From Massilia sp. Se16.2.3 (lineage in GTDB: Bacteria > Pseudomonadota > Gammaproteobacteria > Burkholderiales > Burkholderiaceae_D), in the NCBI RefSeq assembly GCF_014171595.1, contig NZ_CP050451.1:310001-374000 (forward strand): DNA of 64,000 bases, given 5' to 3'. Below the pieces are notes generated by a model. The model had not been told where the DNA came from, ran no database searches, and saw nothing but the letters and a program-made list of their open reading frames with translations. Below are positions 30,733 through 59,101 of this stretch, piece after piece. Positions within the stretch are counted from its first letter, which is position 1. Each line of letters opens with the position of its first letter. The translations under genes were made by a program, and so were the position numbers.

Positions 30733-31437
30733 ATGCGAATTCTACTTGCGGAAGATGACAGTGTACTCGCGGATGGCCTGACGCGGTCGCTCCGCCAGTC
30801 AGGCTACGCGATCGACTGCGTGCGCAACGGCGCCGAAGCCGACACCGCCCTGTCGACCCAGGAATTCGACCTGTTGATCCTCGACCTGGGCTTGCCGAAA
30901 ATGCCAGGCTTGGAAGTACTGCGGCGCCTGCGTGCGCGCGCCTCCCTGCTGCCGGTACTGATCCTCACCGCCGCCGACTCGGTCGAGCAGCGCGTCGAGG
31001 GCCTCGACCTCGGCGCCGACGACTACATGGCCAAGCCCTTTGCCCTGTCCGAACTGGAAGCACGGGTGCGTGCCCTCACCCGCCGCGGCGCCGGCGGCGG
31101 CCCCACCGTGATCCGCCATGGCCCCCTCGTCTACGACCAGGTCGGCCGCAGCGCCTACATCAACGACCAGATGCTCGACCTGTCGGCGCGCGAACTGGGG
31201 CTGCTGGAAATTTTGCTGGCGCGCACGGGGCGCCTGGTGTCGAAGGAGCAGCTGGTCGACCACCTGTGCGAATGGGGCGAGGAAGTGTCGAACAATGCCA
31301 TCGAGGTATATGTGCATCGGCTGCGCAAGAAGATCGAAGTCGGCGGCGTGCGCATCGCCACCGTGCGCGGACTCGGCTATTGCCTCGAGAAATACGCCGA
31401 CGCCGTCCGCGCCGAGCAGGTGGCCGACCACAAGTGA
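30733..31437 (+). CDS. OmpR-family response regulator (TctD/QseB-like)
   Basis: A 234-residue regulator: receiver domain with acidic pocket EDD at residues 7-9, phosphorylated Asp51 in LLILDLGLPKMPG, and the Lys in DDYMAKPFALSEL; then a winged-helix domain with LDLSARELGLLEILLARTGRLVSKEQLVDHLCEWGEEVSNNAIEVYVHRLRKKIEVGGVRIATVRGLGYCL. It forms a pair with the overlapping histidine kinase (GTGA junction). By position it probably controls the DUF4212/symporter genes that follow. Confidence 0.94.
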   Translation: MRILLAEDDSVLADGLTRSLRQSGYAIDCVRNGAEADTALSTQEFDLLILDLGLPKMPGLEVLRRLRARASLLPVLILTAADSVEQRVEGLDLGADDYMAKPFALSELEARVRALTRRGAGGGPTVIRHGPLVYDQVGRSAYINDQMLDLSARELGLLEILLARTGRLVSKEQLVDHLCEWGEEVSNNAIEVYVHRLRKKIEVGGVRIATVRGLGYCLEKYADAVRAEQVADHK

Positions 31438-47400: not shown

Positions 47401-48738
47401 TCACACCAGCAGCATCAGATGCTCGCGCTCCCACGAGCTGATCACGCGGCTGAAGGTGGCAAATTCCAGTTCCTTCACTTCGCAGAAGGCCTGCACGAAC
47501 AGCTCGCCAAGCAAGTTCGACAGCGCCGGACAGCCGCGCATGCGCAGGATCGCGTCTTCCAGGTTGCGCGGCAGGTCGTCGTGGATGTGTTCGGCGCTGT
47601 CCTGGGTCGGTTCGCCGGGCGCAAGGCCCTCGACCATGCCCAGGTAGCCGCAGCTGAGCGTAGCGGCCATGGCGAGATAGGGGTTCACGTCCACGCCCGG
47701 CACCCGGTTCTCGACGCGGCGGTTCTCGGGCGTCGAATTCGGCACGCGGATGCCGCAGGTACGGTTGTCATAGCCCCAGTGCACATTCGTCGGTGCCGAC
47801 TGGAAGCGCGACAGGCGCCGGTAGGAATTCACGTGCGGAGCAAACATCAGCAAGGCCGAGGGCACGTATTTTTCCAGGCCGCCAATGAAATGGAAGAACA
47901 GGGTACTGGGCCCGCCATCCTCGTTCGTAAAAATGTTGCGGCCGCTGCGGGGGTCGACCACGCTCTGGTGCACGTGCATGGCGCTGCCGGGTTCGGTTTC
48001 CATGGGCTTGGCCATGAAGGTGGCGAAGATTCCATGGCGCATTGCCGTCTCGCGCACGGCGCGCTTGAACAGGAAGACGCGGTCGGCCAGCTCGAGCGCA
48101 TCGCCATGGGCGAAATTGATTTCCATCTGGCCGGCGCCCGCTTCGTGGATCAGGGTCTCGACACCCAGCTCGTGCAGCTTGGAAAAGCTGGACAGCTCGA
48201 GAAAGAAAGGGTCGAAGTCGTTGACGGCGTCGATGGAGTACGACTGGCGCCCCAGTTCGGCCATGCCGGTGCGTCCCATCGGTGGGGTCAAGGGGACGTG
48301 CGGGTCGGTATTGCGGGCGACCAGATAGAACTCCATCTCGGGCGCCACCACCGGCCTCCAGCCGCGCTCGGCGTACAGGCGCAGCACCCGGCGCAACACC
48401 GCGCGTGGGGCGAGCTCGACCGGGCTACCGTCGAAGTTCTCGCAGTCGTGGATGACCAGCGCCACCGCCTCGGAGGCCCAGGGCACGACGCGCATCGTGG
48501 CCGCGTCCGGCACGCAGACCATGTCGGGATCGGTGGCGCCCACATACGGTAAATTGTTCGGCTGCTCGCCGTTGACGGTGTTGAGCAGCACGCTTTTCGG
48601 CAGCCGCATGTGCTCGCCGCCGAGGAACAAATCCTTGGGCAGGATCTTGCCGCGGGCGATACCGGTCATGTCGGTGATCACGCACTCGACTTCGTGGATG
48701 TGATGCTCACGCAAGAATTCGCGCATTGCCTCGTGCAT
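47401..48738 (-). CDS. Glutamine-synthetase-family protein (gamma-glutamylputrescine synthetase type)
   Basis: A 445-residue GS-fold enzyme: ECVITDMTGIARGKILP, then PVVAPEMEFYLVARN, GQMEINFAHGDALELADRVFLFKRAVRETAMRHG, ETEPGSAMHVHQSVVD and NRRVENRVPGVDVNPYLAMAATLSCGYLG. Residues match the PuuA/SpuI group that glutamylates putrescine or related amines. One of two such enzymes in the locus, with the other at 53464. ATG 48738 has AGGAG ahead of it. It is separated from the rest of the locus by the 48938 gene and the repeat island. Confidence 0.9.
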   Translation of the reverse strand: MHEAMREFLREHHIHEVECVITDMTGIARGKILPKDLFLGGEHMRLPKSVLLNTVNGEQPNNLPYVGATDPDMVCVPDAATMRVVPWASEAVALVIHDCENFDGSPVELAPRAVLRRVLRLYAERGWRPVVAPEMEFYLVARNTDPHVPLTPPMGRTGMAELGRQSYSIDAVNDFDPFFLELSSFSKLHELGVETLIHEAGAGQMEINFAHGDALELADRVFLFKRAVRETAMRHGIFATFMAKPMETEPGSAMHVHQSVVDPRSGRNIFTNEDGGPSTLFFHFIGGLEKYVPSALLMFAPHVNSYRRLSRFQSAPTNVHWGYDNRTCGIRVPNSTPENRRVENRVPGVDVNPYLAMAATLSCGYLGMVEGLAPGEPTQDSAEHIHDDLPRNLEDAILRMRGCPALSNLLGELFVQAFCEVKELEFATFSRVISSWEREHLMLLV

Positions 48739-48937
48739 GCCGTTCTCCTGCCAGGTCGGAATGGTCAATCTACCATGGCTTGAGGGAGGGGCCGCGCGCC
48801 GGCGGCCGTGGGCAGGGGCAGGCGTATCGACGGCGATCGATCTACTTGCCACGATATCAACCTCTTCTTACACTGGGCTTTTCCCGTTCGCCCCAAGCAC
48901 ACACCATCCAAAAAAGCTCGTTGATCGGACCAGGACC

Positions 48938-49330
48938 ATGACCAAGGACACTGTTTATCTGTACGCCGACGGATGCGATCTTCAGGATTCGGAAGCGGCG
49001 CTGACGGCTGCGTTCGCTAAGCTGGCCAGCCAATGCGCTCAGCCTTCCCTATTGCTGGTCAACGATAGAAAAACTGACAACGACACCGGTCATCCTGACG
49101 ATTTGTCCGAATGGTCGTTGGGACTACATGTCGATGCCAATGCTTTGTCCAAAGACGACATCGACCTGCTGTTCCACTTTGCCAAAGATCTGGCAGCGCA
49201 AACAGGCCATGAATTCGTGTTTGGATTGGCTGACCGGCAGAAGAAGCTTACCGAAGACCTGTGCTTCATCAATGCAGACGCGGGCGAGAGGGAACGATTG
49301 CTGATGCTGACGGCGATTGCATGGCAATGA
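48938..49330 (+). CDS. Hypothetical soluble protein
   Basis: A 130-residue acidic protein: MTKDTVYLYADGCDLQDSEAALTAAFAKLASQ, then LSEWSLGLHVDANALSKDDIDLLFHFAKDLAAQTGHEFVFGLADR. No signal or TM. Alternating strands and helices suggest a small alpha/beta fold. Codon use is less GC-rich than in the flanking metabolic genes, so it may be a later arrival. I do not recognise it; the size and context beside a repeat island recall small immunity-type proteins but nothing proves that. Confidence 0.7.
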   Translation: MTKDTVYLYADGCDLQDSEAALTAAFAKLASQCAQPSLLLVNDRKTDNDTGHPDDLSEWSLGLHVDANALSKDDIDLLFHFAKDLAAQTGHEFVFGLADRQKKLTEDLCFINADAGERERLLMLTAIAWQ

Positions 49331-49383
49331 CAGTCCTCGCTCTCAAAAATGCCCCGGTCTCACCGGCGCCATGGGCTGTGTTC

Positions 49384-49648
49384 GCAAGCTGGGGTCACGC
49401 AAGCTGGGGTCAGGTCTGACATTTGGACACGAGCTCAGCTAAAAACGGTGGCAGTCCTTGTTCATTCGCAAACTGGGGTCAGGTCTGACATTTGGACACG
49501 AGCTCAGCTAAAAACGGTGGCAGTCCTTGTTCAAGAGTGAGCCATGGATAATGCGTTTCCCCCACAGCAGGGTGTAGCGTGGAATAACTGCTGAGGCCGT
49601 GTCCGAATGTCAGACCTGACCCCAGCAGTACGCCTCAGCAGTACGCCT
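49384..49648. repeat. REP-like element with tandem and inverted ends
   Basis: A 61-base unit beginning CTGGGGTCAGGTCTGACAT occurs at 49404-49464 and 49473-49533 (period 69). A partial third start is at 49390. The same end sequence returns inverted at 49599-49625, differing by one base in 27. A short direct repeat (GCAGTACGCCTC-type) follows to 49648. The GGGGTCAGGTCT ends resemble the flanks of REP-associated tyrosine transposase genes, but no transposase lies here, so this is a transposase-less remnant. Confidence 0.8.
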
Positions 49649-49676
49649 GCCCGAGCCGGTTTTGCGCCAGGGCGGC

Positions 49677-49972
49677 TCAGCCACCCTGAATCCAGGTCGT
49701 CTTCAGCTCGGTATATTTATCGAAGGCATGCAGCGGCTTGTCGCGCCCGTTGCCTGACTGTTCATAGCCGTCGAAGGGTACGGTGAGATCGTCGTTGTCT
49801 ACTGGTTGACGTGGACTGTGCCAGCACGCAGACCCCGTGCCGTGCGGATGGCGCGGCTCAGGTTGGCCGTCCGGATGCCTGCCGCCAAGCCGTTAGCCCG
49901 GCGGCCGTCGATGAAAGCGCGGCCGTCGATGCACAGTGTGGCGGCAGCGTCGTGCCATTGTGTTGTTGGCAT
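49677..49972 (-). pseudogene. puuC: Remnant of gamma-glutamyl-aminobutyraldehyde dehydrogenase
   Basis: On the minus strand the first ~25 codons (TLCIDGRAFIDG) match the start of a PuuC-type aldehyde dehydrogenase and run straight into the C-terminal segment (GLAAGIRTANLSRA, GLRAGTVHVNQ). After a stop at 49799-49801 the next frame continues (NDDLTVPFDGYEQSGNGRDK, KYTELKTTWIQGG) to the stop at 49677. So about 400 codons, including the catalytic Cys, have been deleted and one base is also missing at the VNQ-Y-DND junction. It cannot be active. It lies in a putrescine pathway locus where a functional copy is expected. Confidence 0.85.
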
Positions 49973-50106: not shown

Positions 50107-51567
50107 ATGAACTACACCTTGATCACTTGCGTCGTGCTCTACCTGCTGGGCACGCTGGCGCTGGGCGTTTGGGCGGGCTCGCGCATCAAGAACACCAGCG
50201 ACTTCGCCGTCGCAGGACGCAGCCTGCCCCTGGTCATGGTCATCACCACGACTTTCGCCACCTGGTTCGGCGCGGAGACCGTGATGGGCGTGCCCGCCCG
50301 CTTCGTGCAGGGCGGCCTGAACGCCGTCATCGAGGATCCGTTCGGCGCCGGCACCTGCCTGATCCTGGTCGGCCTGTTCTTCGCCACCAAACTGTATAAA
50401 CTCAACCTGCTGACGATCGGCGACTATTACCGCGAGCGCTACGGCAAGGGCATCGAGATCTTCTGCTCGGTGGCGATCATCCTCAGCTACCTCGGCTGGG
50501 TCGCGGCCCAGATCACGGCGCTCGGCCTGGTGTTTTCGGTGCTGACGAATGGTGCGATGGAGCCCTGGGTGGGCATGGTGATTGGCACCCTTGCCGTGCT
50601 GATCTACGTGGTGGTCGGCGGCTTCCTGGCCGTCGCCCTGACCGACTTCATCCAGATGATCGTGCTCGTCATCGGCATGTCGATCATCGCCTTTTTTGCT
50701 GCCGACCTGGCCGGCGGCGCCGACAAGGTGCTCGGCATGGCCCAGCAGGCGAATTTGTGGCGCCTGCTGCCGGAGCCAAGTTTTAACAGCATCATCTTCT
50801 TCATCGGCGCGGCCATCACGATGATGTTCGGCAGCATTCCGCAGCAGGACGTGTTCCAGCGGGTGATGTCGGCCAAGGATGCACCGACGGCGCGTACCGG
50901 TGCCGTGATCGGCGGCGCCAGCTACATCCTGTTCGGCTTCGTGCCGATGTTCATCGTCGCCGCGGCCGTCGTCGTCATGGGCGACCATGCCCTCGACATC
51001 GCCAAGAACGATTACCAGCGCCTGCTGCCGACCTTCGTGATGACGAAAATGCCGCTGGTAATGCAGATCCTGTTCTTCGGCGCCCTGCTGTCGGCGATCA
51101 AGAGCACTTCGTCGGCCACCCTGCTCGCGCCGTCGACCAGTTTTACCGAAAACATCCTCAAAAACCTCCGTCCGGGCATGAGCGACAAGCAGCAGCTGCT
51201 GGCGATGCGCATTACCATCGTCGTCTTCGCCACGCTGGTGCTGATTTACGCGATTGCGATGGAAGGCACATCGATCTATGAGCTGGTGTCCTCGGCCTAT
51301 CAGGTGACCCTGGTTGCGGCCTTCGTGCCGCTGGTCATGGGCCTGTACTGGAAGCGCGCCACCACCCAGGGTGCGATCGTCTCGATCGCCGCCGGCATGG
51401 TCGTCTGGATCCTGTTCTTCCCGCAGCTGTCGTCACTGGGCGAACACTTCCCGGGCCAGCTGGCCGGTTTGCTGGCGGCGTTTGCCGGCATGTTTATTGG
51501 TTCGCTGGCACCGCAGGTGTTCAAGAACCGGACCGAGCCGACGAAACATATCGCGGCGAATGTGTGA
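50107..51567 (+). CDS. Sodium:solute symporter family transporter
   Basis: A 486-residue inner-membrane protein with about 13 helices. SSS hallmarks: SRIKNTSDFAVAGRSLPLVMVITTTFATWFGAETVMGVPARFVQGG, and LLSAIKSTSSATLLAPSTSFTENI with the sodium-binding Ser/Thr region. It is embedded in the putrescine locus with divergent aminotransferase, so an amine or amino acid substrate is plausible but unproven. It is unrelated in detail to the symporter at 33284. Confidence 0.9.
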   Translation: MNYTLITCVVLYLLGTLALGVWAGSRIKNTSDFAVAGRSLPLVMVITTTFATWFGAETVMGVPARFVQGGLNAVIEDPFGAGTCLILVGLFFATKLYKLNLLTIGDYYRERYGKGIEIFCSVAIILSYLGWVAAQITALGLVFSVLTNGAMEPWVGMVIGTLAVLIYVVVGGFLAVALTDFIQMIVLVIGMSIIAFFAADLAGGADKVLGMAQQANLWRLLPEPSFNSIIFFIGAAITMMFGSIPQQDVFQRVMSAKDAPTARTGAVIGGASYILFGFVPMFIVAAAVVVMGDHALDIAKNDYQRLLPTFVMTKMPLVMQILFFGALLSAIKSTSSATLLAPSTSFTENILKNLRPGMSDKQQLLAMRITIVVFATLVLIYAIAMEGTSIYELVSSAYQVTLVAAFVPLVMGLYWKRATTQGAIVSIAAGMVVWILFFPQLSSLGEHFPGQLAGLLAAFAGMFIGSLAPQVFKNRTEPTKHIAANV

Positions 51568-51582
51568 GCGGCAGGATCGGCC

Positions 51583-51897
51583 ATGATGACTGGTCCGGGC
51601 GATCAACACTCTTTCGGTAGCCGCGTCATACAGATTAGCCTGAACGACGTAAGGAATGTGTTTCAGGACGTCCTGCATCACCGCATGACGAGGGAAGCCG
51701 CCGACCGCTGGGCGTACTCGATCATGCAGGCGTCAGAAGGAAAGTCGCTGGAATATGTACCGCCCAGTGAGCAGGACCGGATATGGGCTGGCGTCATGTT
51801 TCTCTTGGGTGCTGACTTGCAAGAATCACCTGGCCAGTACTTGTTCAGTGACGAAGCTATCCACGACTGTATGCTGAAGGCGTGCGGCGACGCCTGA
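51583..51897 (+). CDS. Hypothetical protein
   Basis: A 104-residue soluble protein: VIQISLNDVRNVFQDVLHHRMTREAADRWAYSIMQASEGKSLEYVPPSEQDRIWAGVMFLLGADLQ. The helical pattern with conserved-looking Trp and R-A-x-RWA recalls small uncharacterised proteins found beside contact-dependent or other toxin systems, though no toxin is near. GC is lower than the neighbours. It starts 15 bases after the symporter stop; the second Met (51586) is an alternative start. Confidence 0.7.
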   Translation: MMTGPGDQHSFGSRVIQISLNDVRNVFQDVLHHRMTREAADRWAYSIMQASEGKSLEYVPPSEQDRIWAGVMFLLGADLQESPGQYLFSDEAIHDCMLKACGDA

Positions 51898-51925: not shown

Positions 51926-53374
51926 CTACATCCATCCTCGTGCACGCACATCGGCCTGCGTCAAATCCAGGCACGCCCAAATCCGCGCCGCCATCGCATC
52001 GATCTCCGATTTCGTCATCACCAGCGGCGGCGCCACGATCATCCTGTCGCCCACGGCGCGCATGATCACCCCCTGCTCGAACATGTGACCTCGGCACAGC
52101 ATGCCGACATGCAGCGCGCGCTCGAAGGGCATGCAGTCGTGCAGCGTCGGCCCCTTTTCCCTGACCAGGTTCAGGCCCGCCACCATGCCGCAGCTGTCGG
52201 CGTAACCCACCAGCGGGTGCTGCGCGAGCTTGCTGAAGGCCGCCGCCAGGTGCGGCCCGGTTTCCAGCGCCACCTTTTCTATCAACCGCTCCTCGCGCAG
52301 GATGCGCAGGTTCGCCAGCGCCGCCGCGCAGGCCACCGGATGGCCGGAATACGTAAAACCGTGATTGAAGTCGCCGCCCTTTTCGATCAGCGCATGGGCC
52401 ACACGCTCGCCGACCAGCACGCCGCCCAGTGGCACGTAGCCGGAGGTGACGCCCTTGGCAAAGCTGATCAGGTCGGGTTGAAAACCCATCAGTTCGCAGC
52501 CGAACCAGGTTCCCAGTCGCCCGAAGCCGCAGATCACTTCGTCGGCGACGAGCAGGATGCCGTACTTGTCGCAGATGCGCTGCACTTCCGGCCAGTAGGT
52601 CGCGGGCGGAATGATGACGCCGCCCGCGCCCTGCACCGGTTCGCCGATGAAGGCGGCGACGTTCTCCGGGCCGACGGCGAGGATTTCTTCTTCCAGCCAG
52701 CCCGCCGCCAGCAAACCGAAGGCGTTCTCGCTCATGCCCTGGCCGTGTTCGCCGTAATGGGGCTGGCCGATGTGGCGGATGCCCGGGACCGGCAACCCGC
52801 CCTGGGCATGCATGCCAGCCATGCCGCCCAATGAGGCCCCGGCCAGCGTGCTGCCGTGGTAGGCGTTGTGGCGACTGATGATGACCTGGCGATCCGGCTG
52901 GCCGAGGATGTCCCAGTAGCGCCGCACCATGCGCACGACGGTGTCGTTTGCCTCGGAGCCGGAGCCGGTGAAGAACACGTGGGAAAACCGCGGCGGGGCG
53001 AGCGCCACCAGTTCGGCCGCCAGCTGCACGGCCGGAACATTGGTCGTGTTGAAGAAGCTGTTATAGAAAGGCAGGGTTTCCATCTGCCGGTAGACGGCTT
53101 CGGAAATGGCCGTGCGCCCGTAGCCGGCGTTCACGCACCAGAGGCCCGACATGCCGTCGATGATCTGGCGGCCGTCGGAGTCCCATAGATACACGCCTTG
53201 CCCGCGCACGATCACGCGCGCACCCTTGTCACGCAAGGCCGCGTGGTCGGTGAAGGGATGCAGGAAGTGGGCCGCATCGAGTTGTTGAAGGGCACGCGTG
53301 TCGAAGGTTTCTGCTTCGGGCACGCGCAAGGAGGCCAAGCTGGCGGCAATCACCGCCGTGTCATCGGTTGCCAT
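51926..53374 (-). CDS. spuC: Class III aminotransferase (putrescine--pyruvate type)
   Basis: A 482-residue PLP enzyme: GVYLWDSDGRQIIDGMSGLWCVNAGYG, FFTGSGSEANDTVVRMVRRYW, ISRHNAYHGSTLAGASLGG, ILLVADEVICGFGRLG and the PLP-Lys in LISFAKGVTSGYVPLGG. The sequence and its neighbours (GS-like, PuuD) fit SpuC, which transfers the amine of putrescine or its relatives to pyruvate. Its start ATG 53374 lies 90 bases after the GS-like gene stop. The same gene set in related genomes normally includes the now-lost puuC. Confidence 0.9.
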   Translation of the reverse strand: MATDDTAVIAASLASLRVPEAETFDTRALQQLDAAHFLHPFTDHAALRDKGARVIVRGQGVYLWDSDGRQIIDGMSGLWCVNAGYGRTAISEAVYRQMETLPFYNSFFNTTNVPAVQLAAELVALAPPRFSHVFFTGSGSEANDTVVRMVRRYWDILGQPDRQVIISRHNAYHGSTLAGASLGGMAGMHAQGGLPVPGIRHIGQPHYGEHGQGMSENAFGLLAAGWLEEEILAVGPENVAAFIGEPVQGAGGVIIPPATYWPEVQRICDKYGILLVADEVICGFGRLGTWFGCELMGFQPDLISFAKGVTSGYVPLGGVLVGERVAHALIEKGGDFNHGFTYSGHPVACAAALANLRILREERLIEKVALETGPHLAAAFSKLAQHPLVGYADSCGMVAGLNLVREKGPTLHDCMPFERALHVGMLCRGHMFEQGVIMRAVGDRMIVAPPLVMTKSEIDAMAARIWACLDLTQADVRARGWM

Positions 53375-53463: not shown

Positions 53464-54834
53464 TCAGACGTGCAGCAGCAGGTGTTCGCGTTCCCACGGG
53501 CTGATGACGGTCATGAATTCCTGGTGTTCGAGCTCCTTGATCGCGGAATACACGTCGATGAAGCGCTGGCCCAGCACCTCGCGCACGCGTTCCTCGGCGC
53601 GCAGCAGGGTCAATGCCTCGGGCAGGCCCTGGGGCAGTTCGACCGGCATGTTGTAGGCGCTGCCTTCGACAATGGGCGACGGTTCGATCGCATGCACCAT
53701 GCCGAGGTAGCCGCAGGCCAGCGTGACGGCCAGCGCCAGATACGGATTGGCGTCGGCGCCGATGATGCGGTTCTCGACGCGGCGGTCTTGCGCGCCGGAG
53801 ACGGGGACGCGGAAGCCCACGGTGCGGTTGTCGATTCCCCACTGCAGGTTGATCGGGGCGGCCGTGTGGCGCACGATGCGGCGGTAGGAATTCACATAGG
53901 GGGCGACGATCGCCATCGCCGACGGCATGTAGCGCTGCAGGCCGCCGACGTAATGGTGGAACAGCGCCGACGCGGTCCCGTCGGCGTTACTGAAGATGTT
54001 CTGGCCGGTTTCGGCATCGACCACGCTCTGGTGCACGTGCATGGCCGAGCCCGGTTCGCCCGCCATCGGCTTGGCCATGAAGGTGGCGTACATGTCGTGC
54101 TTCAGGGCCGCTTCGCGCAGCGTGCGCTTGAAATAGAAGACTTTATCGGCCAGGCCCAGCGGGTCGCCGTGCTGGAAATTGATTTCCATCTGGCCGGCGC
54201 CGATCTCGTGGATCAGGGTGTCGACGTCGAGGTTCATCAGGTCGCAATAATCGTAGATGTCCTCGAACAGCGGGTCGAACTCGTTAACCGCGTCGATGCT
54301 GTAGACCTGGCGGCTGGTTTCGGCGCGGCCGCTGCGGCCGATCGGCGAGGCCAGCGGCAAGTCGGGGTCGATGTTCTTGGCCGTCAGGTAGAACTCCAGT
54401 TCCGGCGCCACCAGCGGCTTCCAGCCCTTTTGCTGGTAGAGCTTGAGCACACGGCGCAGCACCGTGCGCGGGGCGAAATCGACCAGCTCGCCATTGGCGA
54501 AATAGCAGTCGTGAATCACCTGCGCGGTAGGATCGACCGCCCACGGCACCATCGTGATGGTGGTGGGGTCGGCCTTCAGGATCATGTCGCGGTCGGTGCT
54601 GGAAATGGCGCGGTCGTAGGCATCGTCGCGGGTGGGCGAGTTGCCGGTGACGGTCATGCCGAGCACGGCTTCCGGCAGGCGCATGCCGCGCTCTTCGGTG
54701 AATTTCACGCGCGGCAGGATCTTGCCTCTGGCAACGCCGGTCAGGTCGGGGACCAGGCATTCGATTTCAGTGACGCGCTTGGCATTGAGCCAGTCGTCCA
54801 TGTCGTTGTAAGAAAAATTCTCGCGGATTGCCAT
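53464..54834 (-). CDS. puuA: Gamma-glutamylputrescine synthetase family protein
   Basis: A 456-residue GS-fold enzyme, a paralogue of the one at 47401: EIECLVPDLTGVARGKILPRVKFTEERGMRLPEAVLGMTVTG, LVAPELEFYLTAKN, GQMEINFQHGDPLGLADKVFYFKRTLREAALKH, AGEPGSAMHVHQSVVDAETGQNIF, NRIIGADANPYLALAVTLACGYLGM. It should ligate glutamate to putrescine. It follows puuD by 123 bases, and is the second gene in a puuD-puuA-spuC minus-strand row. Confidence 0.92.
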   Translation of the reverse strand: MAIRENFSYNDMDDWLNAKRVTEIECLVPDLTGVARGKILPRVKFTEERGMRLPEAVLGMTVTGNSPTRDDAYDRAISSTDRDMILKADPTTITMVPWAVDPTAQVIHDCYFANGELVDFAPRTVLRRVLKLYQQKGWKPLVAPELEFYLTAKNIDPDLPLASPIGRSGRAETSRQVYSIDAVNEFDPLFEDIYDYCDLMNLDVDTLIHEIGAGQMEINFQHGDPLGLADKVFYFKRTLREAALKHDMYATFMAKPMAGEPGSAMHVHQSVVDAETGQNIFSNADGTASALFHHYVGGLQRYMPSAMAIVAPYVNSYRRIVRHTAAPINLQWGIDNRTVGFRVPVSGAQDRRVENRIIGADANPYLALAVTLACGYLGMVHAIEPSPIVEGSAYNMPVELPQGLPEALTLLRAEERVREVLGQRFIDVYSAIKELEHQEFMTVISPWEREHLLLHV

Positions 54835-54957: not shown

Positions 54958-55716
54958 TCATGTGTTTCCCGATTTCTTGGCTCGGTAATCGCGGCAAGCC
55001 TGGCCGAAGGCACCGAACATCTTCATGGAATACGGATTGTGCGTGATGCGCCATTCGGGATGCCATTGCACTGCCAGCGTGAAGCCGGGTGCGGCGGCGA
55101 CCGAAAAGGCTTCCACCAGGCCATCCTCGGCGGTGGCTTCGACCACCAGGCCGGGCGCCAGTTCGGCAACCCCCTGCCCGTGCAGCGAATTGACGGGAAT
55201 TTCGTCGGCGCCGACGATCTCGCGCAGCTTGCCGCCCGGGGTCAGCATCACCTTGTGGGCGTCGCCGTATTGCTCGTCCATGCCAAGCTCGGGTTTTTCG
55301 CGGTGGTCGAACTTGCCTTCGACCAGTTGCACCGCCTGGTGCAGGGTGCCACCGAGGGCCACGTTCATCTCCTGGAAACCGCGGCAGATCGCAATGATCG
55401 GAATGCCGCGCCCGACCGCCGCCCGGATCAGTGGCAGGGTCGTTTCGTCGCGCGCCCGGTCCTGGGGCAGCGAGGGGTCGAGCACTTCTTCGGAGTAATA
55501 GCTGGGGTGAACATTCGACGCCGAACCGGTCAGCATGATCCCATGGCACAGCTGCAGCATCGTCTCCAGGTCGAGCGCCGGCCCGAGCGAGGGCAGGATC
55601 ATGGGAGCGCAGTCGGCGCCGAGGACAACGGCGTCGACATATTTGTGCTGGGCAGCGTGATACGGATGTTCGCCGAAATCACGCGTGCAGGCTGGAACGA
55701 TGACGATGGGGCGCAT
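54958..55716 (-). CDS. puuD: Gamma-glutamyl-gamma-aminobutyrate hydrolase
   Basis: A 252-residue class I glutamine amidotransferase-like enzyme: RPIVIVPACTRDFGEHPYH, CHGIMLTGSASNVHPSYYSEE, ICRGFQEMNVALGGTLHQ (nucleophile Cys near residue 113) and WHPEW with the catalytic His. It removes glutamate from gamma-glutamyl-GABA. ATG 55716 chosen; the earlier frame has no N-terminal homology. First gene of the row. Confidence 0.93.
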   Translation of the reverse strand: MRPIVIVPACTRDFGEHPYHAAQHKYVDAVVLGADCAPMILPSLGPALDLETMLQLCHGIMLTGSASNVHPSYYSEEVLDPSLPQDRARDETTLPLIRAAVGRGIPIIAICRGFQEMNVALGGTLHQAVQLVEGKFDHREKPELGMDEQYGDAHKVMLTPGGKLREIVGADEIPVNSLHGQGVAELAPGLVVEATAEDGLVEAFSVAAAPGFTLAVQWHPEWRITHNPYSMKMFGAFGQACRDYRAKKSGNT

Positions 55717-56115
55717 GGAAACTCTACCTTGTCGTGGGCGCACTGAGACCATCATACGAGCTATCTGGTCCGAGCGCGAGTGGCCATTAATCCAGATCAA
55801 ACACTCAGCGTTTATGTCACACGCATGGCGCCGATCTGCTACTCAATCCGCGGTTTCATGGCAAAAGCTTATCGGTAACGCGCCGACCATGCCAACACGA
55901 ATAGGCTGGGCAATACGGCTGCCGCGCATCGCCGCAGCGGGTGGCCGCCTGCCGCTGAAGCTGGAGGCTTCCTGTCGAAAAATTTTACATGTGCAGTAGC
56001 TGTTGATCCGGCACAAACTATAAGTACTTGAAGGAAATGACTATTTCTTTTATGGCATGATAATTGCTTATACTAAATCAGAGCGTATGTCCGCGACAAT
56101 AATCAATGTAAGCCC
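55717..56115. other. Divergent intergenic region between puuD and PEP-CTERM gene
   Basis: A 399-base region. It holds the sigma-54 promoter at 56053-56068 for the rightward gene and presumably a promoter for puuD. The last 120 bases are AT-rich. No coding frame looks real. Confidence 0.5.
56053..56068 (+). promoter_or_regulatory. Sigma-54 promoter of the PEP-CTERM gene
   Basis: TGGCATG-N4-TTGCT, matching the -24/-12 consensus with GG and GC correctly spaced. Predicted start near 56079, 37 bases before the ATG. PEP-CTERM genes in other betaproteobacteria are activated by the PrsK/PrsR pair from such promoters. Confidence 0.82.
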
Positions 56116-56970: not shown

Positions 56971-57376
56971 TTCGGTACTCCAGTCGCCATACCGGGCGCC
57001 TCGTGCGCCCGGCACAGTCTCTTTCGCCCTTCCCCACCCTCGCGCTACGCTTCCTTTCGGCCTGCGCACGGGCGGCCGCTACGCGCCGCCATGCCCGCTC
57101 CCGCCAACATGCGCGGATTGCCCGGGTTGTCAAGACCGCCCGTACGCCAACCATCTCCTGCCTCGACGCCAGCGCAGTACCCAGTCCGACCTGGCACTTG
57201 TGTCTGTTCCTCGCCGTTCAATTACCCGCTATGATCGATCCGGCAAGATCGATCGGCCTGCCGTTCGCCCGCGACAGCACCACGCTGACCGGAATTCCCT
57301 CCGGCAGCCGGCGCACATGCACGCACGGCCCGGCCGCCGTTCTCGACCATCACATGAACAATCCAGGAGACACGCA
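56971..57376. other. Intergenic region, no gene supported
   Basis: 406 bases between the PEP-CTERM gene and the carboxylesterase. A frame from 57003 to 57380 lacks a Shine-Dalgarno and has Arg/Ala/His composition typical of random GC-rich frames. The end provides the AGGAGA Shine-Dalgarno for the esterase. Confidence 0.5.
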
Positions 57377-59101
57377 GTGAAAATGGAAGCGTCAACACAC
57401 GCGCAGCGGATCAGGCTATCGCTGGCATCGGGCATCATGCTGCTGCTCGCCGGTTGCGGCGGTTCGGACTCGGGGCCGCAGCGCGCCCTGGACGTCGTCC
57501 AGACTGCCGGCGGCGAGGTCAAGGCCGTCGACCGCCTCGGCATGCGCAGCTACTTTGCCATTCCCTTCGCCGCGCCACCGGTGGGCGAATTGCGCTGGAA
57601 AGCGCCGGCGCCGGCGCAGAAATGGACCACGGCGCTGGCGAACACCAGGTCGGCGGCACCCTGCCTGCAGACCAGTGCCAGCCCGTTCCGCCTGGGCGGC
57701 GACAGCGAGGATTGCCTGTATCTCGACGTGCACGCGCCGACCGGAGCGGGCCCCTTCCCGGTCATGGTCAACCTGCATGGCGGCGCCTTCAATACGGGCG
57801 GCACGATGGTGTATGCCGACCCGTCGCCGCTCGTCAGCAAGGGCGTGATCGTGGTCAATGTGGCCTACCGGCTCGGCGCGATGGGCTTTCTCGCGCACCC
57901 GGCGCTGGCCAGTGAGGGCGCCGCGGGCAATTACGGCATCATGGACCAGCAGGCGGCATTGAAGTGGGTGCAGGAGAACATCACGGCTTTTGCCGGCGAC
58001 AAGAACAACGTGACGATCTTCGGCGAGTCGGCCGGCGGTTTCAGCGTGATGACCCATCTCGCTTCGCCCGGTTCGCGCGGCCTGTTCAGCAAGGCGATGG
58101 TGCAGAGCGGGAACTACGGCAACGACCGCCAGCTGAGCGCCGCGCAGATGGGCGCTACCAGCAGCACCATCGTCGACAGCGCGATCAATGCAGCAAGGAC
58201 GGCCGGCATCACCGGCATCGGCTGCGATCCCGGCGCGGTGAGTGCGGCCTGCCTGCGCAGCCTGCCCGATCCGGTCATCCGCATCTACCTGGCCAATGCC
58301 ATCAGCACTGCCCTGCCGATCATGGTGCCCTCGGTGGACGGCAAGGTCTTGCCGAAATCGGTCAAGGCGACCTTCCTCGCCGGCGAAAACACCAAGGTAC
58401 CGCTGGTGAACGGCACCAACCAGGACGAATACGCGCTCTACATCGCCATCAACGAGGCCGGCCGCCGGGCAGCCGCCACGCCGCCCAACTTCGATCCAGC
58501 CAACACCAGCTTCGCCCTCCCGGCCGCCGGCTATGCGCCGACCGTGGCGGCCCTGACGGCGGGCAGCGGCGCCAACGTCAACGACATCGTCACGAAGTTC
58601 TATCCGTTGGCCAACTTCGGCACGAATCCGGCCATCCAGCCGAGCCTGGCGGCGTCCAGCATGGCAACGGACCTGGGCTTCTCCTGCCCGGCCCTGCGTA
58701 CCTCTCAGCGCGCCGCCGCCCAGGGGAGTCCGGTCTGGATGTACGAATTCCGCGACCAGACGGCGCTACCCACGGTCGGCATGGCCAACGGCAGCTATTA
58801 CCTCAGCTTCCCGCAGGGCGCCGCCCACTCCTACGACCTGCAATACCTGTACAACATGGGCGACCTGGGCAACGAGGAACGGCGCCAGCTGCAAACAGCG
58901 ATGACGCGCTACTGGACCAACTTCGCCAGGACCGGCAACCCGAACAGCGGCGGCGAGGCACCGGCGGCCTGGCCGGCATTTACGGGACCGGACAAGGTAT
59001 TGGGGCTGGACGTGGCTTCAGGCGGGGGAATCGCGCAGGTGAGCAACTTCGACGCGGCCCACCAGTGTTCGGCGGCGTGGGGCAGCATCGTCGCTTTTTA
59101 A
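57377..59101 (+). CDS. Type-B carboxylesterase lipoprotein
   Basis: A 574-residue esterase: lipoprotein signal (LSLASGIMLLLAGC), then RSYFAIPFAAPPVGELRWKAP, EDCLYLDVHAP, VMVNLHGGAFNTGG, the nucleophile elbow TIFGESAGGFSVMTHLASPGSRGLFSKAMVQSG, Glu in GTNQDEYALY and His in GAAHSYDLQYL. It should hydrolyse esters or amides outside the inner membrane. GTG 57377 follows AGGAGA by five bases; ATG 57383 two codons later is an alternative. Confidence 0.92.
   Translation: MKMEASTHAQRIRLSLASGIMLLLAGCGGSDSGPQRALDVVQTAGGEVKAVDRLGMRSYFAIPFAAPPVGELRWKAPAPAQKWTTALANTRSAAPCLQTSASPFRLGGDSEDCLYLDVHAPTGAGPFPVMVNLHGGAFNTGGTMVYADPSPLVSKGVIVVNVAYRLGAMGFLAHPALASEGAAGNYGIMDQQAALKWVQENITAFAGDKNNVTIFGESAGGFSVMTHLASPGSRGLFSKAMVQSGNYGNDRQLSAAQMGATSSTIVDSAINAARTAGITGIGCDPGAVSAACLRSLPDPVIRIYLANAISTALPIMVPSVDGKVLPKSVKATFLAGENTKVPLVNGTNQDEYALYIAINEAGRRAAATPPNFDPANTSFALPAAGYAPTVAALTAGSGANVNDIVTKFYPLANFGTNPAIQPSLAASSMATDLGFSCPALRTSQRAAAQGSPVWMYEFRDQTALPTVGMANGSYYLSFPQGAAHSYDLQYLYNMGDLGNEERRQLQTAMTRYWTNFARTGNPNSGGEAPAAWPAFTGPDKVLGLDVASGGGIAQVSNFDAAHQCSAAWGSIVAF

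Follow-up and report, generated by a model that had tools for sequence, protein, structure and literature searches.

The minus-strand segment 49677-49972 of the window is a true, old pseudogene of a puuC/kauB-type aldehyde dehydrogenase, located in a gamma-glutamyl-amine catabolic locus whose other genes are intact. Loss of this dehydrogenase is recurrent in the genus, while the rest of the module stays together. The window, as the whole stretch of 64,000 nucleotides that was analyzed is called here, belongs to a genome designated G000, which consists of one 5.35-Mb contig and is 98.8% complete. It was compared with genomes sampled from the genus, making a set of 61 with G000 included, of which 50 carry the module as judged by the presence of the aminotransferase. 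The nearest named records to the window aminotransferase were from Massilia species, in a comparison from which the window's own record was possibly left out. The features of the region are the following.

47401-48750, minus strand: GS2, an intact glutamine-synthetase-like ligase (PF00120, 326.7 bits)
48753-49676, no strand: about 0.9 kb between the end of puuC and GS2, without counterpart in G023 and G010
48938-49330, plus strand: orphan open reading frame of 130 amino acids within that stretch
49398-49626, no strand: cluster of three REP-like elements, two direct and one inverted
49677-49894, minus strand: C-terminal stump of about 70 codons, in frame with the N-terminal stump and then thrown out of frame by one base near 49800
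49895-49972, minus strand: N-terminal stump of the puuC/kauB-type gene, 26 codons (68% identity over 25 amino acids to the PuuC of G023, with the start and the upstream bases aligned)
50107-51567, plus strand: intact sodium:solute symporter (PF00474, 154.8 bits; TIGR00813, 188.9 bits, cut-off 184)
51583-51897, plus strand: open reading frame of 104 amino acids matching no Pfam or NCBIfam family
51926-53374, minus strand: intact SpuC-like class III aminotransferase (NF005682, 736.5 bits, cut-off 510)
53464-54834, minus strand: GS1, an intact glutamine-synthetase-like ligase (PF00120, 353.3 bits)
54958-55725, minus strand: intact PuuD-like gamma-glutamyl hydrolase (PF07722, Peptidase_C26, 224.6 bits; ICRG and WHPE motifs)
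56971-57419, no strand: inferred site of the gabD-bearing block of relatives, which is absent here

The full-length PuuC of the relative G023 (495 residues) was used as the tblastn query against the whole window and aligned in three collinear pieces, all of them minus-strand. Residues 1-27 aligned to 49972-49892 (63%, 36.6 bits), residues 417-454 to 49903-49802 (68%, 48.5 bits) and residues 456-495 to 49799-49680 (85%, 77 bits), and the last two combined had an E value of 2e-25. A chance match was ruled out, since 20 windows shuffled in two-base blocks reached at most 27.7 bits; outside these pieces, the real window itself gave no more than 23.9 bits. The first two pieces are in the same frame, from which the loss of one base displaces the remainder. 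Thus, the original prediction that both ends of a PuuC-type gene had been joined by an internal loss of about 400 codons, with a further single-base loss breaking the frame, held in all its parts. Fewer than 100 of the 495 codons are left. The missing stretch includes the catalytic residues Glu264 and Cys299 (G023 numbering), whose positions in the G023 protein we took from what are presumably the active-site motifs; with both residues inside the deletion, the locus does not encode a functional dehydrogenase of the KauB/PuuC type. The C-terminal stump matched positions 394-428 of PF00171 with an E value of 2e-4 and 21.7 bits, narrowly below the curated cut-off of 23. Inspection of the deletion junction by eye showed no clear repeat.

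An origin of the two ends from different dehydrogenases was ruled out. Identity of the last piece is 85% with PuuC versus 38% with GabD, the N-terminal piece shares its 68% identity with the G023 PuuC, and the alignment with related genomes placed a full-length puuC at the same spot, adjoining the symporter, in G023, G067, G074, G019 and G010. The gene order in G023 is hydrolase, GS1, aminotransferase, symporter (opposite strand), full-length puuC, GS2, thpR and panB, and the window follows it except for the puuC stump and the extra 0.9 kb before GS2. Both ends therefore belong to one gene, at the position where relatives have the intact copy. An assembly error, in which a full-length puuC exists and was collapsed, is highly improbable. 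Another aldehyde dehydrogenase of G000 (G000:C1:3792527-3793907) is also split over frames, with a stop and pieces 37-40% identical to GabD, which counts in favor of such an error. However, the retained piece of puuC carries nine private nonsynonymous changes where six relatives agree, and a mis-joined intact gene is unlikely because this C-terminal piece has itself decayed. Moreover, the deleted middle part did not turn up at any other place in the one-contig assembly, where the best PuuC match (E 1e-94) is at the level of a two-domain paralogue that is 41% identical.

The DNA between puuC and GS2 is variable. The two genes are also apart, separated by other DNA, in G067 and in one contig of G025, and GS2 was not seen next to the puuC-symporter pair in G074, which keeps puuC and lacks GS2 at this place (L077 14652-14791). 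In G029, GS2 is gone from this place along with most of puuC (L046 12240-12304), and in G033 genes resembling a histidine kinase and a response regulator lie between puuC and GS2 (L062 3991-5811). Among ten stretches inspected, four puuC-less ones keep both of these genes and one has both truncated; the kinase and regulator names, like those of the GlcG-like and HIUase-like genes, were assigned by eye. The orphan open reading frame of the window had matches in three of the 61 genomes, namely G000 itself and two at 34% identity, and its longer reading, 48809-49327, had no Pfam or NCBIfam match. The REP-like element occurs at 92 sites in G000 when up to 3 mismatches are allowed, compared with none for the reversed pattern, and its copies are often clustered in direct and inverted orientation. 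Copies at 487267, 487317 and 488290 surround a match to the Y1-type transposase family PF01797 (G000:C1:487462-487785), an arrangement that we take to be a REP-associated tyrosine transposase system.

The remaining genes, which had been described as intact, have open reading frames and keep their active-site motifs. These include the SFAKG lysine motif of the aminotransferase and, in GS2, what we presume to be the glutamine synthetase motifs. A GS-like ligase, a class III aminotransferase and a gamma-glutamyl hydrolase are clustered as in a Spu/Pau-type module, and structures in the PDB related to the aminotransferase include 6gwi (entry name putrescine aminotransferase) and 9j4z (polyamine:pyruvate transaminase). 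The description of a putrescine locus was correct as regards the gamma-glutamyl-amine gene set. Putrescine as the substrate is a guess, because GS1 and GS2 score 178.3 and 183.5 bits with the gamma-glutamylputrescine synthetase model NF045547 (cut-off 650) and the hydrolase, although its Peptidase_C26 domain is recognized, scores 192.7 bits with the PuuD model NF008471 (cut-off 266). The label PuuC-type is right for the dehydrogenase; the intact G023 relative reached 652.3 bits with the NCBI PuuC equivalog NF007352 (cut-off 850) and is nearest to KauB among solved structures (6b4r, 686 bits; 4lih, a gamma-glutamyl-gamma-aminobutyraldehyde dehydrogenase, 639 bits).

A full-length puuC was found in 40 of the 61 genomes, all of them among the 50 with the aminotransferase. 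The ten that carry the module without puuC are G000, G006, G007, G012, G013, G029, G065, G069, G075 and G078. G006 (83% complete) and G078 (87%) both belong to one puuC-less group of four on the tree; in G006 the puuC place itself was seen and the gene is absent, and in G078 the contig stops inside the aminotransferase. GS1 is present in all 50 module stretches (partial in G006), and the hydrolase and the symporter are each present in 49, the gaps being stretches cut off in G006 and G078; in G072 the module is divided between two contigs. GS2 was detected in at least 28 of the 50. When the state of puuC was mapped on a tree of four retained genes, seven changes were needed, six of them forced by starred branches, and sister genomes with and without puuC, respectively, were G001 and G007, G014 and G065, and G074 and G029. 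Stumps were also found in G029 (78 codons) and weakly in G006 (18 residues, E 0.005). Because stumps remain, the direction of change can be called a loss in G000, in G029 and, weakly, in G006, and for the other puuC-less genomes loss is the simplest reading. G025, a fragmented metagenome-assembled genome that is 84% complete and has two differing copies of the region (L044 and L155), was excluded from the neighbor counts; one copy was among the six puuC comparisons and the L044 copy was used in the tree. Its two different copies of the puuC start and symporter (L044 1-1729; L155 6449-8842) suggest that G025 may mix two populations.

The age of the loss was approached through the changes private to G000. 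In these counts, which are rough because the comparison taxa differ (six for the stump, three for GS2), the C-terminal stump has 9 nonsynonymous to 3 synonymous changes in 69 codons, against 8:23 for the intact genes, summed over six relatives (one-sided Fisher p 0.005). In the G000 lineage the counts were 13:43 for GS2, 10:24 for the symporter and 10:19 for GS1, and the stump differed from these three pooled (p 0.002) and from all five retained genes (p 0.008). The test has limited power, since the aminotransferase (26:28, p 0.08), the hydrolase (10:11, p 0.12) and panB, which served as a control from outside the locus (23:18, p 0.20), could not be separated from the stump. The hydrolase (p 0.03) and panB (p 0.003) changed faster in G000 than in relatives, and the aminotransferase not clearly so (p 0.09). 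Part of the raised nonsynonymous ratio is therefore a property of the G000 lineage, and single-gene counts are weak. Pairwise dN/dS values of the five retained genes were 0.08-0.16, and those of the relatives among themselves 0.08-0.15; the codon alignment of the esterase gene carE was dropped after an obviously bad result (dN/dS near 0.9). The stump decays as if neutral, while in this lineage purifying selection has acted on the ligases and symporter. These counts suggest that the dehydrogenase died well back on the G000 branch and that at least the ligases and the symporter would have been kept since.

The same figures bear on the idea that the whole locus is decaying, the route being dead in this lineage and its other genes simply unbroken so far. 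The disappearance of both puuC and the gabD block, the repeat-bearing insertion between puuC and GS2, and the raised nonsynonymous share of the hydrolase are what decay would leave. Nevertheless, we consider it quite unlikely: the stump looks neutral and GS1, GS2 and the symporter do not, five genes remain open with their motifs present, panB is raised likewise outside the locus, and the module is kept in other puuC-less genomes too.

The check for another PuuC/KauB-type dehydrogenase in the genome gave a negative answer. A PF00171 scan and searches with PuuC, GabD and ExaC found no KauB-type dehydrogenase anywhere in G000. The 13 matches of the scan fall at nine places, including the stump. 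Curated models assigned one of the enzymes to MmsA and one to AstD, and the rest, judged by eye, resemble PutA, ProA, a PaaZ-like enzyme, a ketoglutarate-semialdehyde dehydrogenase (without an NCBIfam match at E 1e-60), the broken gene mentioned above and a two-domain enzyme. The last, at 2026956, was set aside as a KauB substitute on account of its position in a deoxynucleoside-type operon, which we take to be purine phosphorylase, deoB, deoC, the dehydrogenase, deoA and cdd; promiscuity is possible. Overall, the other aldehyde dehydrogenases of G000 look dedicated to other routes. G000 has only five PuuC matches at E 1e-30, and the six other genomes of the 61 with five all lack the module.

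GabD and ExaC are missing as well. In G023, gabD lies beyond the hydrolase (831.2 bits, NCBI cut-off 828), and G000 has no match at E 1e-120. The hydrolase-esterase stretch of G029 that includes gabD (L046 1138-6331) has no counterpart at the corresponding place in the window; anywhere in the window, it matches only 158 nt within a response-regulator gene (30944-31099). As gabD is missing in 10 of the 50 module-bearing genomes, including the near relatives G025 (84% complete) and G074, its loss may be old and shared rather than specific to G000. No link between puuC loss and gabD was found across the tree, in counts that excluded G006 because of a partial match. ExaC (919.8 bits, cut-off 900) occurs in 35 of the 61 genomes and was absent from G000 in a genome search. 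Its presence in nine of the ten puuC-less genomes versus 24 of the 40 with puuC is a trend only (p 0.13; independent pairs, median p 1), and ExaC was rejected as the compensating enzyme in G000. Three genomes, G000, G007 and G013, lack PuuC as well as GabD, and G000 alone among the module-bearing 50 is without PuuC, GabD and ExaC together. The molybdopterin aldehyde-oxidase-type domain gave eight matches in G000, corresponding to about seven genes, which are candidates for the aldehyde step.

These results bear on the three outcomes originally proposed: another dehydrogenase acts, the route stops at or diverts from the aldehyde, or the locus is re-purposed. The first is favored because puuC loss is recurrent in the genus and the module outlives it; that no such enzyme was found in G000 keeps some probability on the other two. 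We consider it probable, if only just, that a dispensable linked dehydrogenase has been lost repeatedly and that an enzyme whose gene lies outside the locus oxidizes the aldehyde, as in Pseudomonas. The locus would be a Spu/Pau-like module composed of a symporter, one or two GS-like ligases, a class III aminotransferase and a gamma-glutamyl hydrolase, to which the linked KauB/PuuC-type dehydrogenase would be dispensable. Amines would be imported, glutamylated and transaminated as in relatives. Since no dedicated replacement was found in G000, the oxidizing enzyme is proposed to be one of broad range, either a molybdopterin aldehyde oxidoreductase or a promiscuous aldehyde dehydrogenase such as that of the deoxynucleoside-type operon or AstD. 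For SAR11, it has been argued that multifunctional enzymes take part in polyamine use (PMC8437039).

A re-purposed, oxidation-free module would send no carbon to succinate and would serve amine uptake, glutamate capping for detoxification or storage, and/or the recovery of a single amino group through transamination, with some other fate for the aldehyde. The joint absence of PuuC, GabD and ExaC while the ligases and symporter are constrained fits such a module, as does the rarity of the usual gabT, a candidate rejected because it was found (TIGR00700, E 1e-120) in three genomes and is missing from 58 of 61. We regard it as unlikely, however, because the free aldehyde is toxic, the hydrolase is kept even though its known role comes after oxidation, and other possible oxidizing enzymes remain in G000. 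A broader form, in which glutamylation and transamination work without a dedicated aldehyde dehydrogenase (selected for amine detoxification or nitrogen scavenging) or are coupled to a molybdopterin aldehyde oxidoreductase, is conceivable but doubtful. If true, G000, without PuuC, GabD and ExaC, would be the clearest example free of such a dehydrogenase among the 50 module-bearing genomes.

The case is mostly one of ordinary gene loss, and the loss is real. Should the module function in the absence of PuuC, then predicting putrescine use from puuC or gabD in genome sequences would give false answers for some members of the genus, and the missing oxidation step would be a concrete target for enzyme discovery. 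The six to seven separate puuC changes with the module kept offer natural comparisons. A literature search did not find Massilia, putrescine and glutamylputrescine together, and the matches for puuC, pseudogene and putrescine all had E. coli in the title.

Compared with the E. coli Puu system (PuuA-D, PuuE, GabD), relatives of G000 similarly pair a PuuC-type dehydrogenase with a PuuD-type hydrolase and GS-like ligases. The window locus differs in having an aminotransferase, in the lack of a PuuB-like gene among those identified, and in its ligases and hydrolase falling under the synthetase and PuuD model cut-offs. Two independent enzyme sets lead from putrescine to succinate in E. coli, according to PMC10606097. 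The Pseudomonas spu/pau system, with its SpuA hydrolase and its gene order, offers the other comparison. The window has a sodium:solute symporter where Pseudomonas has an ABC transporter, and 40 of the 50 sampled module-bearing genomes keep a KauB-type gene with the module, while G000 has none. The two are alike in their GS-like ligases and SpuC-type aminotransferase and, as described in PMC9397018, KauB/PauC lies outside the SpuI/SpuC cluster in Pseudomonas; in P. aeruginosa it is PA5312, far from SpuI (PA0296) and SpuC (PA0299). Since the Pseudomonas dehydrogenase is thus unlinked to SpuI and SpuC, a module without its own dehydrogenase is not strange by itself.
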